Shown here: positions 40,753-46,091 of the stretch, in pieces
Layout of the letters: each line of letters begins with the position of its first letter
Position numbering within the stretch: the stretch's first letter is position 1
Source of the DNA: Mesonia sp. K7
Lineage (GTDB): Bacteria; Bacteroidota; Bacteroidia; Flavobacteriales; Flavobacteriaceae
Assembly: GCF_003233725.1 (NCBI RefSeq)
Contig: NZ_QKQV01000010.1
Coordinates: 1 to 64,000 of the forward strand
Length of the DNA: 64,000 nt
Reading direction: 5' to 3'
Notes under the pieces: generated by a model
Seen by the model: the letters and a program-made list of their open reading frames with translations, nothing else
What the model was told of the DNA's origin: nothing
Databases searched by the model: none
Program-made: the position numbers and the translations under genes

Positions 40753-43047
40753 TTAAAAAATAAGTCTGAAAACTAAATTTGGCGTGATTCCCAAACCTTC
40801 TTGTTCTATAAAAACAATTTCATTGTCGATTTGCTCGTAATAAGCGTTTACCGTATTTTTTCGGTTAAGGAGATTCCAGACCGAAATTCCTGCGTAAGCT
40901 TTTATATTTTCGTGAATTTCGAAAGCCTTACTTGCCGAAAAATCCAAACGTAAATAAGGGTTTAAATCTTCACTATTCGGCGATAAATAATCAAATTGAT
41001 TGTTAGCTAAACCTTCTTGACTAATAGGAGTGTAGTGTCTTCCCGATCGCCATTTGAGACCAGTTGCAAGCTTTAAGTCATTATAATCATAAGAAGCAAT
41101 TACCGAAAGCGAATTGACAATCTCTAAGTTACTAGGAATAGGTTCTTCTGAAATCGCATCAAACTGATAATCGTTATTGGTAAGTGAATAATTGATAGAA
41201 GTTTGAAATTTTTTAAACCTTCGGTTAATTATAAAATCGATACCGCGGATAAACGTTTCGCCAACAAGCGAAACCAACTCGTATTGATCTTGAAAACCCT
41301 GGCTTTGTGTATTGACGTTATTTACTTTTTTGGTATAAGCCTCCAAACTTGCCAACCAATTTTTTCTTTTATAATTGATACCAATGGAAAGTTGTAAACT
41401 CTCCTGAATTGGTCTGTCAAGGTTGTTGGACAACACCCAGCGTTGGTTTTCGACACCTAGAAAATCTTTCTGAAAATCGATGTATTGAGAAATATATTGG
41501 CTTTTGGTTTCACCAAGAAACTCAAACGAGATTTCGTCGGTCAGCACTTGATTGAAACTAAATCTTGGCTCGACTAAAAACTTTTCCTGTACATCAAAAT
41601 AATTAAAACGTAAACCAAAATTAGCATAAGTTCTTTTGTCTAAACTTTTGAAATGGATATTTGAAAAGAAAGCTGGAGAAAACATTTTCTCTTCACTTTC
41701 TGAAAGGTTATTATCATTTTCTTGTTGGTTGATAATTTCAGTTTGAAGTAACTCAGCTCCGTTTTCTAACTGAATTTTATCGTTGAGTTGGTAATTGGTT
41801 TGTAACTTAAAGCTCGTCTCGGCAACTTCATTGTTTTGGGTTAATTCGGTAATCGTATTTTCATCAAAATTTTGAGCGTTTAGCTTGTAGTTGCTATAAT
41901 AAACTTGGGCGTTTGTAGAAAATTTATCGCTCCAGTTGCGTCGGTAATTAAGGCCTAAACCTAAATTGTTTTGCTCCAAATTACTTCTTTTGGAAGTAAG
42001 AGTGTCAGCTAATATCTGGTTTTCGCTAAAATCTAACTGATTGGAAAGATACATAAAGTTAAACCGTAACTTATCTTTAGCTGAAGCTTGAAAAAGTCCA
42101 CGTAAACTGAGATCATAAAAAGAAAAATCTTCATTACGTTGAATAATATCTTCGTTTACGTTGGTAATATCTGTATTCTGAAATGCTCTATCGAAATATT
42201 GATTATAAGTAGGTGTTACAAAAACACTGTTGATAGAAGTTCGTGCCGCAGTGATAACCGAAAAGTTTTTACTTACCGGGACATCAGCTAGACCGTAAAT
42301 ACTTAAGTAATTTACACCTGTTTCTGCAGAAAAACCTTGATTAATTTCATCTTCGGTATTCAGAAGGATAACACTCGAAACGCTGTTTCCGTAAGTAGGA
42401 TTGGTGCCGTTTTTGATGAGCATCGTATTTTTAGTTAAATACGGATTGATCGCTGAAATCAATCCCAAAAAATGACCGTATTGGTACATTCTTATGCCGT
42501 CCCAAATAAGCATATTTTGGTCAGAAGAACCACCACGAATGTTGAGGTCGCTAATCTTTTCGTTCACACTTTCTACACCTGGTAAAGCTTGTAGAGACTG
42601 CAAGGCATCGGGTTCTATTAAGCCGGGAAGAATACCAAAGTTCTTATAGTTAATCTCAAAAACACCTCGATCTTTTTTAGAAATACCACGCGCAAGATAA
42701 TTGGTAATAACAATTTCGTTAAGCTTTTCGACGGGTATTTCTGTTTTTTGCTCTCGGTTTGAAGTGATGGCAATATTTCGCTCACCAATAAAGCGAAATT
42801 CCAACGAAGTCTGACGCTCAATTAAGTTGATAGAAGCATTAAAAGGTTTCGAAATATCGAAACCGATTATTTTGATGTCGTTCACATCCGCATCAGCGTA
42901 CGTAAAATAATAACCAAATTTTTCTTCTAACTGTTGTAAAGCCTGAGGTAAAGCAATAGAGTCTGTGGCTTTCTGTGCAAGTGTTTTTGCAGAAAACAGC
43001 GTAAAAAAACAGCAAAAAAGAAATAAGAGTTTATAGTTTTTTGGCAC
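40753..43047 (-). CDS. TonB-dependent outer-membrane signal receptor with STN domain
   Basis: The 764-aa product has a signal peptide (ending LAQK), an STN secretin/TonB N-terminal signalling domain (about 30-95, LPQALQQLEEKFGYYFTYAD), a plug (about 130-235, LNIRGGSSDQNMLIWDGIRMY) and a barrel ending VFRLIF. The STN domain marks it as a transducer that reports ligand binding to FecR. It overlaps the fecR end by 17 bases, so the two are translationally coupled. The imported ligand (siderophore, iron complex or other) cannot be read from the sequence. No carboxypeptidase-like SusC domain is present. Confidence 0.93.
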   Translation of the reverse strand: MPKNYKLLFLFCCFFTLFSAKTLAQKATDSIALPQALQQLEEKFGYYFTYADADVNDIKIIGFDISKPFNASINLIERQTSLEFRFIGERNIAITSNREQKTEIPVEKLNEIVITNYLARGISKKDRGVFEINYKNFGILPGLIEPDALQSLQALPGVESVNEKISDLNIRGGSSDQNMLIWDGIRMYQYGHFLGLISAINPYLTKNTMLIKNGTNPTYGNSVSSVILLNTEDEINQGFSAETGVNYLSIYGLADVPVSKNFSVITAARTSINSVFVTPTYNQYFDRAFQNTDITNVNEDIIQRNEDFSFYDLSLRGLFQASAKDKLRFNFMYLSNQLDFSENQILADTLTSKRSNLEQNNLGLGLNYRRNWSDKFSTNAQVYYSNYKLNAQNFDENTITELTQNNEVAETSFKLQTNYQLNDKIQLENGAELLQTEIINQQENDNNLSESEEKMFSPAFFSNIHFKSLDKRTYANFGLRFNYFDVQEKFLVEPRFSFNQVLTDEISFEFLGETKSQYISQYIDFQKDFLGVENQRWVLSNNLDRPIQESLQLSIGINYKRKNWLASLEAYTKKVNNVNTQSQGFQDQYELVSLVGETFIRGIDFIINRRFKKFQTSINYSLTNNDYQFDAISEEPIPSNLEIVNSLSVIASYDYNDLKLATGLKWRSGRHYTPISQEGLANNQFDYLSPNSEDLNPYLRLDFSASKAFEIHENIKAYAGISVWNLLNRKNTVNAYYEQIDNEIVFIEQEGLGITPNLVFRLIF

Positions 43048-43930
43048 TTATGACAACGCTATTGTTGCTTACTTGGTAAGTGTAACCAAAAGGTATTGTC
43101 ACTGATTTTAAAGCAGTTTCAAGGTTTTTGTGGGTTATGTTACCGGTAAACAATTGTTGGTTATCAAATTTAATGTTTTTAAGCGTAATCTCAATATTAT
43201 ATTGGCGCTCTAATTCTTCTATCACTTCCTTTACAGGAATACTCTTGAAGATACTGTAGCCGTTTATCCAAGCGGAAGTGGCTTCTTTGGTGTTGTATTC
43301 GATAAGCTTTCCATTGGCAAACGTCAAGCCTTCTTGTGGCTCAAGCTGTATTTTTTTATTGTTGAAACGTACTTCTACTAGACCTTCATAACATTCTACA
43401 CTCAAAAAACCATTTCTTTGATGAACGTTAAATTCGGTTCCTAGCACTTCTATTTCTCCCATTTTGGTCAAAACGGTAAACTTTTTTCCTTTTTCGACAT
43501 CAAAAAAAGCTTCTCCTTGAAGTTGTAACTTTCTTTTATCGTCCCAATTCTTTTTTTCGTAGCTTAAAGCGGATTCTGCGTTCATTAGCACAACGGAATT
43601 GTCGGGTAACCTAATTTCTTTTGTCTGTTGTGCTAATGTGTTGTATTGTTGAGGTTGCGCAAAGAAAAAGGCAAAATAACAACCTACTACAACTACGATG
43701 ACCGCAGCAATTTTATAGAGCACACTCCAATCGAAAGATTTTTGGTGTGCTTTTTCTTTTATTCTATTATAGCTTTTTACCTGATCAAAAACTGGAGCTT
43801 TAAAAACAGTAGCCTTATCAACGATTTTTTTATAATCTTGATATTCTACCAAGCTCTCCAAAAAGTAAGTTTCTTCTTGTGTGAGCGGCTCATGGTTTAG
43901 CCATTTGATAATGATTTCTTCTTTTTTCAT
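43031..43930 (-). CDS. FecR-family anti-sigma factor
   Basis: The 299-aa product has a short cytoplasmic part (about 1-75), one transmembrane helix (IAAVIVVVVGCYFAFFF), a periplasmic FecR domain (about 105-210, KEIRLPDNSVVLMNAES, VLGTEFNVHQRNG) and a C-terminal STN-like DUF4974 domain (KSVTIPFGYTYQVS). It relays the receptor signal and controls the ECF sigma factor. I use the ATG at 43930: the in-frame ATG at 43939 is only four bases past the promoter-like element and probably upstream of the transcript start. Confidence 0.92.
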   Translation of the reverse strand: MKKEEIIIKWLNHEPLTQEETYFLESLVEYQDYKKIVDKATVFKAPVFDQVKSYNRIKEKAHQKSFDWSVLYKIAAVIVVVVGCYFAFFFAQPQQYNTLAQQTKEIRLPDNSVVLMNAESALSYEKKNWDDKRKLQLQGEAFFDVEKGKKFTVLTKMGEIEVLGTEFNVHQRNGFLSVECYEGLVEVRFNNKKIQLEPQEGLTFANGKLIEYNTKEATSAWINGYSIFKSIPVKEVIEELERQYNIEITLKNIKFDNQQLFTGNITHKNLETALKSVTIPFGYTYQVSNNSVVISAKKL

Positions 43931-43943
43931 AACCTTCATTCTG

Positions 43944-43979
43944 CCTATATAACAACTAAGTGGTAAAAACTCCTACCTT
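43944..43979 (-). promoter_or_regulatory. 36-base ECF-promoter-like element, copy facing fecR
   Basis: On the minus strand, AAGGTAGGAGTTTTT (43979-43965), seven variable bases and AGTTGTTATATAGG (43957-43944) match exactly the 15-base and 14-base blocks of a second copy upstream of the sigma gene. This copy begins at the sigma stop codon and ends 14 bases before the fecR ATG. It lacks a TAnnTTTG box, so it is best read as the promoter recognised by the adjacent ECF sigma factor. Confidence 0.65.
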
Positions 43980-44493
43980 AAATTTCTTTTATATGTTCTC
44001 TTAATTTTTCTAACGCACTGTATATACGTTTTTCTACTGCTTTTTGGGAGATACCCAAAAGGTCTGCAATCTCTTTGTGTTTTTTGCCTTCAGTCTTATT
44101 CATCAAAAAAGCTACTCGTTGAGCTTCGCTAAGTTTTGCAATTGCTTTTTCGTATTTTTTCAGGTATTCTTTCTCTTCTAAAACAAATTGTGGGTCTTGT
44201 ATGTTGTCTTGGTTACCGACTCTATTGTGATGTTTGAGAACTACTTTTTTATGTTTCGCTTCATTAAGCATGAGATTGTTGGCCGTCGTAAACAAGAAAC
44301 TTTTGGCTTTATCTGGGGTCACTTTTTTGCAATTTTGCCAAAGCTTTACAAAAGCTTCCTGCATTTTGTCTTCGGGTTGTAGGCTTTCTCCAAACTTATA
44401 AAACAAAAAGTCGTGTATATCTTTCGCATACTTGTTGTATATCGAGGAGAAGATATGTTCTTCACAGACATTTTTAAATAGTTTTTTAGCCAT
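43978..44493 (-). CDS. RNA polymerase ECF sigma-70 factor
   Basis: The 171-aa product has sigma region 2 (about 10-80: HIFSSIYNKYAKDIHDFLF, QEAFVKLWQN) and region 4 with a helix-turn-helix (AKLSEAQRVAFLMN, KKHKEIADLLGISQKAVEKR). Gene order sigma-fecR-TonB receptor makes it the regulator of a cell-surface signalling system. I use the ATG at 44493; the longer frame to 44577 would run through the promoter region. A TAnnTTTG box 41 bases upstream should give basal expression. Confidence 0.93.
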   Translation of the reverse strand: MAKKLFKNVCEEHIFSSIYNKYAKDIHDFLFYKFGESLQPEDKMQEAFVKLWQNCKKVTPDKAKSFLFTTANNLMLNEAKHKKVVLKHHNRVGNQDNIQDPQFVLEEKEYLKKYEKAIAKLSEAQRVAFLMNKTEGKKHKEIADLLGISQKAVEKRIYSALEKLREHIKEI

Positions 44494-44534
44494 AAATAAA
44501 TTTTCGTTAAAAATATAAAGAAGAAAATTCAAAT

Positions 44535-44542
44535 CAAAGGTA
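44535..44542 (-). promoter_or_regulatory. Putative housekeeping -7 box of the ECF sigma gene (TACCTTTG)
   Basis: On the minus strand, TACCTTTG matches TAnnTTTG and lies 41 bases before the sigma ATG. Its TACC is the complement of the GGTA in the divergent 36-base element, so the two polymerase sites overlap physically. The -33 box is not recognisable. Confidence 0.5.
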
Positions 44543-44572
44543 GGAGTTTTTTGGTTTGAGTTGTTATATAGG
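44537..44572 (+). promoter_or_regulatory. 36-base ECF-promoter-like element, copy facing away from the sigma gene
   Basis: AAGGTAGGAGTTTTT (44537-44551), seven bases, then AGTTGTTATATAGG (44559-44572). Its two blocks are identical to those of the fecR-facing copy, and the spacing is the same. It points rightward into a region with no ATG reading frame that ends in an intrinsic terminator, not into ffh, which has its own -7 box further on. Confidence 0.65.
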
Positions 44573-44577
44573 TACAA

Positions 44578-44683
44578 AAACCATGTGAAAAAGGGGTGTT
44601 TATGCTATAAACATCTTATCGAAAGCAAAGTTTTTGTTGTTTGGTTAAGAGAGCCACTCTATTATTTTAGAGTGGTTTTTTTT
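44578..44683 (+). ncRNA. Candidate ECF-sigma-dependent small RNA (about 100 nt)
   Basis: The proposed transcript runs from just after the 36-base element to a perfect terminator (CCACTCTA 44654-44661, TAGAGTGG 44668-44675, then a T-tract). Inside is a 7-base-pair hairpin (TGTTTAT 44597-44603, ATAAACA 44607-44613) and a U/G-rich single-stranded stretch (AAAGTTTTTGTTGTTTGG) that could pair with mRNAs. Both ATGs in it are followed within two codons by stops (ATG-TGA, ATG-CTA-TAA), so it does not look like a peptide gene. The ends are estimates. Confidence 0.55.
44654..44683 (+). terminator. Intrinsic terminator of the candidate small RNA
   Basis: An eight-base-pair perfect stem (CCACTCTA with TAGAGTGG) has a six-base loop and is followed by eight T. 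No annotated gene ends upstream on this strand, which is why a separate small transcript is proposed. Confidence 0.85.
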
Positions 44684-44730
44684 ATTTCAAAACTTGATAA
44701 AACCTCTTTTTTACTTCTGCGGCAAATTTG

Positions 44731-44738
44731 TATCTTTG
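44731..44738 (+). promoter_or_regulatory. Putative -7 box for ffh (TATCTTTG)
   Basis: TATCTTTG matches TAnnTTTG, 24 bases before the ffh ATG. At the -33 position only a T-run (44707-44712) is seen. It lies after the small-RNA terminator, so ffh is a separate unit. Confidence 0.55.
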
Positions 44739-44762: not shown

Positions 44763-46091
44763 ATGTTTGATAATTTAAGTGATAAGTTAGATAAAGCCTT
44801 ACACGTTCTCAAAGGGCATGGGCAAATTACTGAAGTAAACGTTGCAGAAACGCTTAAAGAAGTAAGAAGAGCCTTGGTAGATGCCGATGTAAACTATAAA
44901 ATCGCTAAAGATTTTACCAGTACCGTAAAAGAAAAAGCTTTGGGTCAAGACGTTCTTACGACGTTAAAACCAGGCCAATTGATGGTAAAACTGGTAAAAG
45001 ATGAGTTGACAGAGTTAATGGGTGGCGATGCTGCAGGAGTCAACCTTTCGGGGAATCCGAGTGTGATTTTGATGTCTGGTTTACAAGGTAGTGGTAAAAC
45101 AACATTTTCCGGAAAACTAGCCAATTACCTCAAAAATAAGAAAAGTAAAAAACCACTTTTAGTAGCTTGTGATGTTTACCGTCCTGCGGCGATCGATCAG
45201 TTGCATGTGGTTGGTGAACAAATAAATGTTGAGGTTTATTCGAATCGAGAGATTAATGACCCTGTAAAAATTTCGCAGGATGCTATCGCTTACGCGAAAC
45301 AAAATGGACACAATGTGGTGATTATCGATACCGCTGGTCGTTTAGCAGTTGATGAAGCGATGATGACCGAAATCTCCAACATTCATAAAGCGATACAACC
45401 ACAAGAAACTTTATTTGTTGTCGATTCGATGACAGGGCAAGATGCGGTAAATACGGCAAAAGCCTTTAATGACGTTTTAAATTTCGATGGTGTTATTCTT
45501 ACCAAATTAGACGGTGATACCAGAGGTGGAGCTGCGATTTCGATTAAATCGGTGGTGAACAAGCCTATTAAGTTTATTGGTACAGGAGAGAAGATGGAAG
45601 CGATTGATGTTTTCTATCCTGCTCGTATGGCCGACCGTATTTTGGGAATGGGAGACGTAGTTTCTTTAGTAGAAAGAGCTCAAGAGCAATACGACGAAGA
45701 TGAAGCGAGAAAACTGCAGAAGAAAATTGCAAAAAACCAATTTGGTTTCGACGATTTTCTAAAGCAAATCCAGCAAGTGAAGAAGATGGGGAATATGAAA
45801 GACTTGATGGGGATGATTCCCGGAGCCGGTAAAATGGTGAAAAATCTAGATATCGATGACGATGCATTTAAGCATATCGAAGCGATTATTCACTCGATGA
45901 CCCCAGAAGAGAGAAGTACACCTTCTATCATCAACGGAAGTAGAAAGAAAAGAATTGGAAAAGGTTCTGGTACTTCGGTAACGCAAGTCAATCAGTTGTT
46001 AAAACAGTTTGACCAAATGAGCAAAATGATGAAAATGATGCAAGGTGGTGGCGGAAAACGTATGATGCAAATGATGAAAGGAATGCGATAA
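44763..46091 (+). CDS. ffh: Signal recognition particle protein Ffh (SRP54)
   Basis: The 442-aa GTPase targets nascent membrane proteins to FtsY/SecY. The N domain is followed by the G domain with GLQGSGKTTFSGKLANYL (P-loop), DTAGRLAVDEAM and TKLDGDTRGGAA. The M domain is methionine-rich at the C-terminus (QMSKMMKMMQGGGGKRMMQM) and binds 4.5S RNA and signal sequences. Confidence 0.98.
   Translation: MFDNLSDKLDKALHVLKGHGQITEVNVAETLKEVRRALVDADVNYKIAKDFTSTVKEKALGQDVLTTLKPGQLMVKLVKDELTELMGGDAAGVNLSGNPSVILMSGLQGSGKTTFSGKLANYLKNKKSKKPLLVACDVYRPAAIDQLHVVGEQINVEVYSNREINDPVKISQDAIAYAKQNGHNVVIIDTAGRLAVDEAMMTEISNIHKAIQPQETLFVVDSMTGQDAVNTAKAFNDVLNFDGVILTKLDGDTRGGAAISIKSVVNKPIKFIGTGEKMEAIDVFYPARMADRILGMGDVVSLVERAQEQYDEDEARKLQKKIAKNQFGFDDFLKQIQQVKKMGNMKDLMGMIPGAGKMVKNLDIDDDAFKHIEAIIHSMTPEERSTPSIINGSRKKRIGKGSGTSVTQVNQLLKQFDQMSKMMKMMQGGGGKRMMQMMKGMR

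Follow-up and report, generated by a model that had tools for sequence, protein, structure and literature searches.

We analysed a window of 64,000 nucleotides from Mesonia sp. K7 (NCBI RefSeq assembly GCF_003233725.1, contig NZ_QKQV01000010.1, positions 1 to 64,000), in which genes for an ECF sigma factor, a FecR-type protein and a TonB-dependent receptor follow one another on the minus strand in the order sigma–fecR–receptor. The sigma factor gene (43978–44493, 171 aa) matches Pfam Sigma70_r2 and Sigma70_r4_2, corresponding to regions 2 and 4, and has orthologues family-wide; against TIGR02985 (Bacteroidetes sigma-70) it scores 109.5 bits, which is under the cut-off of 126.4. The adjoining fecR gene (43031–43939, 302 aa; Pfam FecR and FecR_C) encodes the anti-sigma factor or sensor, and the receptor gene (40753–43047 in the ORF list, 764 aa) has a GTG start that overlaps the end of fecR. 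The receptor matches Pfam Plug with 25.1 bits, barely over the cut-off of 23.9; its first ~100 residues are STN-like by eye only, no STN match being listed by the Pfam search, and a search of the PDB gave no sequence match for it. Thus, two features of FecI/FecR/TonB-receptor signalling are present at this locus, an ECF sigma factor with regions 2 and 4 and a FecR-type anti-sigma factor adjoining the sigma gene.

The sigma gene is flanked by two copies of a 36-base element (15-N7-14) that lie in opposite orientations, point outwards and are free of mismatches in their fixed blocks, as first described; 100 shuffles gave 0 exact elements of this form. Copy 1 (43944–43979, minus strand) faces fecR and the receptor, has the same position in relatives and lies directly upstream of fecR, 4 nt from the start codon (ATG 43939). 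Copy 2 (44537–44572, plus strand) faces away from the sigma gene into 111 nt (44573–44683) beyond which lies ffh. Because the element pairs with the sigma gene in 73 of 80 named Flavobacteriaceae loci, as scored by a regular expression for the divergent copy, we infer that it is bound by the adjacent FecI-like ECF sigma factor and would serve as its promoter. For a genome scan, we relaxed the pattern to GGTAGGA-N-TTT-N12-TGTT-N-TA and used the reversed pattern as a control. The relaxed pattern occurs, with 0 mismatches, at six sites in the genome of Mesonia sp. K7 compared to 0 for the reversed control, so that there are more copies than the two first noted. The four further copies precede genes for a DUF4168 protein, a carboxypeptidase-regulatory-domain lipoprotein, a secreted protein and a spermidine-synthase-like protein (the last 130 nt away). 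Relaxed-pattern sites are present in 13 of the 16 genus genomes, and across the genus nearly all of them precede fecR, secreted or lipoprotein genes. Judged by this distribution, the element is a promoter family with the pattern of an envelope regulon; together with its family-wide presence on both sides of the sigma gene, the location of the other copies before envelope genes supports the original assignment of the element to this sigma factor.

We note that the distance between element and fecR is very short in relatives too, and that in the window (43930–43944) the fecR mRNA may be nearly leaderless or may begin at the second ATG (43930). In two species, short tandem repeats with GTGTTCA and ACTAACT units lengthen the stretch that separates the sigma gene from the fecR promoter (L019 and L032). 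No element copy faces the sigma gene itself (44494–44540, minus strand) and a TATATTTT box upstream of it resembles a primary sigma −7 box, suggesting that the sigma factor may not autoregulate its own gene.

The region facing copy 2 lacks a usable ATG frame: the ATG at 44582 has TGA as the next codon, the ATG at 44602 gives a dipeptide, and the longest closed frame between 44573 and 44683 is 9 aa. By contrast with shuffled sequence, 0 of 200 shuffles being as good, the proposed small RNA (44573–44683, plus strand, ends inferred) has a predicted fold of −36.2 kcal/mol with a z of about −5.3 to −5.8. Its 5' domain (44574–44637, plus strand) has a closing stem (44574–44581 with 44630–44637) enclosing an internal hairpin (44593–44617), and the MFE and centroid structures are the same. 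A U/G-rich stretch containing TTTGTTGTTT (44630–44648, plus strand) lies just before an intrinsic terminator (44647–44684, plus strand) made of a 15-pair stem (44647–44682) and a T run; a simple terminator scan of the window did not list this terminator, but both its stem and its T run are readily seen in the sequence and in the fold. Rfam gave no match at the gathering score for the RNA in the window (best Qrr, 24.3 versus 50). The absence of a usable frame, the internal hairpin and the terminator are thus all as first described, and copy 2 faces what appears to be a non-coding, structured and terminated RNA that would be transcribed from it.

The next gene on the plus strand is ffh (44763–46091; TIGR00959 ffh, 609 bits), which encodes the signal recognition particle protein and forms a separate unit. 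Downstream of the terminator lies TATCTTTG (44731–44738, plus strand), a −7 box of the TAnnTTTG type that is conserved in family loci. TAnnTTTG is the primary sigma consensus (PMC7366714, PMC9723704); 57 of 60 loci have it in the 75 nt ahead of ffh, at about 30–36 nt from the start, compared to 6% in shuffles. Based on this conservation, ffh appears to have its own promoter box, independent of the RNA unit.

Among the 14 genus genomes that bear the sigma gene, eight keep promoter, U/G-rich stretch and terminator in an RNA-only layout, in one, G007 (apparently M. aquimarina), the U/G stretch and the terminator come after a remnant ORF, and in five the promoter and terminator are lost or decayed. 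The original prediction had expected close relatives that keep the sigma–fecR pair to keep the second copy and the terminator as well; these five keep sigma and fecR but have lost both features, which counts against the prediction, and the RNA would therefore be dispensable in some lineages. Six of the eight RNA-only genomes have an exact TTTGTTGTTT at an equivalent position, compared to 0.1–2.4% in shuffles of single sequences. Other exact matches to TTTGTTGTTTNNGTTTA were set aside as chance, one being inside a coding gene and one in an unrelated intergenic region (L043 and L044). Stem sequences vary among species while the folded layout recurs. Over its whole length, the RNA in the window is 0.48–0.64 identical to that of some congeners against a null of 0.50–0.53, which is no better than shuffles; between M. 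sp. and R32 the identity is 0.72 with a null mean of 0.53 (maximum 0.71). The case for conservation in Mesonia therefore rests on the layout and the U/G stretch.

In Flavobacteriaceae as a whole, the gene normally driven by this divergent promoter encodes a lipoprotein of ~590 aa that has no Pfam family; 60 family loci have an ORF of 140 aa or more after the element. The original prediction of a small RNA paired with the receptor operon thus stands in part: the non-coding, structured and terminated RNA is found in eight of 14 genomes, but in genera other than Mesonia and Psychroserpens a lipoprotein mRNA takes the divergent position. The 3'UTR of this mRNA carries a large-loop hairpin containing GGUUARUUA and then a terminator, usually just before ffh. 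GGUUARUUA lies ahead of a T run in 39 loci and in a hairpin loop in 37 of these by per-sequence constrained folding, which assumes the motif to be unpaired. The loop is the most conserved part of the 3'UTR, and the invariant positions are in the loop and not in the stem. The hairpin arms change compensatorily (AAAGGAA/TTCCTTT, AAAAGCAAA/TTTGCTTTT, GGTTGAAAGC/GCTTTCACC), and the terminator stem shows double changes in nine of 11 pairs; MAFFT/RNAalifold on the 3'UTR set recovered the terminator hairpin only, the arms of the first hairpin being misaligned. For eight family loci searched, Rfam holds no family for the hairpin and terminator. When 149 family genomes were searched with a covariance model of the 3'UTR, 18 gave a single strong match (E below 1e-8), the weaker matches being of doubtful meaning; the model did not detect the RNA in the window. 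In the family at large, this module shares its terminator with the upstream coding gene; in the window, no coding gene is left between promoter and terminator.

In addition to Mesonia, the RNA-only layout is found in five Psychroserpens-like loci, in which promoter and 3' RNA lie directly together and CGTTAGTTTTAGTTTTTAGTTGGTTA is nearly invariant. These RNAs are 73–94% identical, and fourfold sites of ffh are saturated (36–52% identity, compared to 53–56% for shuffled alignments). On the sequences compared, conservation is moderate in Mesonia and strong in Psychroserpens. In a sigma tree, which is a quick tree with many weak branches, the Psychroserpens-like loci branch next to Winogradskyella within the clade that bears the ORF, away from Mesonia, suggesting that the RNA-only state has at least two origins. 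Psychroserpens retains the lipoprotein family at a second, paralogous locus that has a fecR and a receptor of its own (L176 and L177), and the coding loss there would therefore be local; in these paralogous stretches the regular expression found no element copy. The genome of Mesonia sp. K7 has no lipoprotein homologue at E 0.001. The M. aquimarina locus holds an ORF of 150 aa with weak similarity to part of the lipoprotein (E 7.7e-5), and its 3'UTR shares 15 nt with the 3'UTR of a full-length gene, which was matched by 0 of 200 shuffles. By these similarities, M. aquimarina forms a bridge between the full-mRNA and RNA-only states. The Mesonia RNA would most simply be the 3'UTR of the lipoprotein mRNA after loss of the coding sequence; for Mesonia, the suggested homology is based on position, promoter, terminator and this one intermediate.

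Searches for targets and partners of the RNA were negative. The exact complement of the U/G stretch has 11 matches in the own genome, one of which is the RNA itself, compared to 21 for the reversed control, and is thus not enriched; one match lies 17 nt before a start codon, and A-rich leaders are common in this genome. A pairing of the 3'UTR loop with fecR around +38 seemed consistent at first but was rejected, since permuted loops reach minima of equal depth. Searches of the own genome for Hfq and RRM_1 found no protein, and control genomes gave matches.

Our working hypothesis, which we hold with modest confidence, is that the RNA is the non-coding arm of a FecI/FecR-type envelope regulon and evolved from an mRNA 3'UTR after loss of the ORF. 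Specifically, FecR would release the sigma factor, which would then transcribe in both directions: fecR and the receptor from copy 1, and from copy 2 a non-coding RNA of ~111 nt with a 5' hairpin domain, a partly unpaired U/G-rich stretch and a terminator. This RNA would descend from the 3'UTR of the divergent lipoprotein mRNA that is still present in most relatives; the coding part would have been lost here, and the promoter and 3' RNA would have stayed. It would most likely act in trans as a non-coding arm of the regulon, either by antisense pairing through the U/G-rich stretch or by binding a protein.

We also considered that the locus may be a relic, in which deletion of the lipoprotein ORF left a promoter and a terminator that together make a short RNA without function. 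The loss or decay of element and terminator in five congeners, the likeness of the whole RNA to that of some congeners at no more than shuffled level and the lack of a target signal in the U/G-complement and fecR-pairing tests are all as expected of a relic. A relic does not readily account for the identity of the Psychroserpens RNAs in the face of saturated fourfold sites, for the identity of 0.72 between M. sp. and R32, for a folded layout that recurs with different stem sequences or for the same end state having arisen in two lineages; we regard it as unlikely, though it deserves to be taken seriously. If the conserved hairpin and terminator were instead a cis-acting 3'UTR element that only stabilises or terminates the lipoprotein mRNA, this would fit most of the family, in which the module closes a coding mRNA, but the invariant positions are in the loop and not in the stem, and the RNA end persists where no coding sequence remains to protect. 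This makes a purely cis-acting role improbable.

A leader or attenuator of ffh, by which envelope stress would tune the signal recognition particle, is suggested by the position of ffh, which is next in the window on the same strand and 79 nt past the terminator. Yet in 57 of 60 loci a conserved TAnnTTTG box that belongs to ffh lies past the terminator, and in M. mobilis, M. oceanica and others the terminator is followed by a different gene; we consider this role very unlikely. It is harder still to credit that the region encodes a very short or non-ATG peptide: one TTG/GTG frame of up to 64 codons is open in the window, but it passes through the terminator and is unconvincing, and the longest closed frames, which reach 9 aa in the window and no more than 25 aa in relatives, are unrelated in sequence.

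The enteric sigma-E envelope response has a non-coding arm consisting of MicA, RybB and MicL. FoxI and FoxJ are small RNAs of an ECF-sigma envelope response in Fusobacterium (PMC11005410). As in these systems, an ECF sigma factor with an envelope regulon would here drive a small RNA; unlike in them, the sigma factor is FecI/FecR-like and accompanied by a TonB receptor, Hfq is not detected and the RNA adjoins the sigma gene. CpxQ is the 3'UTR-derived sRNA of cpxP (PMC9438474) and likewise involves an envelope-response gene with a conserved RNA module in its 3'UTR. However, CpxQ is cut from an intact mRNA, whereas here the coding sequence is absent in two lineages, and the former mRNA promoter would therefore produce the RNA directly, as a primary transcript. 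The closest precedent we found is Rfp11 of Flavobacterium psychrophilum, a putative regulatory RNA from the SM6 promoter (PMC9723704) and thus a flavobacterial putative RNA behind an ECF-type promoter. By its description, SM6 is set apart by a CGT −10 box and T9SS genes, compared to GGTAGGA-N16-TGTTNTA beside a FecI/FecR-like pair here. The Bacteroides sRNAs GibS and FopS, the latter associated with an RRM protein, resemble the RNA in having a single-stranded seed and a terminator; the parts of these reports available to us describe no ECF control for them (PMC7366714, PMC11697453), and an RRM protein was not found in the genome here. The block of sigma factor, FecR and TonB receptor resembles FecI/FecR/FecA-type cell-surface signalling, but the classical system is without a divergent lipoprotein mRNA or RNA unit, and here other genes also carry the same promoter. 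A literature search combining FecI, FecR, small RNA and Bacteroidetes, with subscription papers outside its reach, returned only an unrelated metatranscriptome, and in the literature searched no RNA arm is described for an ECF sigma factor with a FecR partner.

Pairs of an ECF sigma factor and a FecR protein abound in Bacteroidota. Should the RNA have a function, receptors of this kind could repress as well as activate genes, and this in cells without detected Hfq. The family shows a series of states, from a complete mRNA with an RNA tail through a remnant ORF that still has the tail to the RNA by itself and finally nothing, that makes the origin of stand-alone sRNAs, an old question, directly testable. 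That a sigma-controlled mRNA twice, in separate flavobacterial lineages, lost its coding sequence at this locus, retained the promoter together with the structured 3' end and was thereby turned into a regulatory RNA standing on its own, giving a 3'UTR-to-sRNA route traceable through intermediates in living species, is a conceivable outcome that we stop a little short of calling probable.

In one family locus (L106), an element-like site precedes a non-coding stretch with a terminator, beyond which lies a receptor-like gene whose product has a carboxypeptidase-type domain; the 3'UTR model matches this locus weakly (E 0.025). In a Mesonia oceanica-like genome (G002), two genes for leucine-rich-repeat secreted proteins lie near the sigma locus (L156 and L158), each behind its own slightly degenerate element copy, suggesting that the promoter may have spread by gene duplication.
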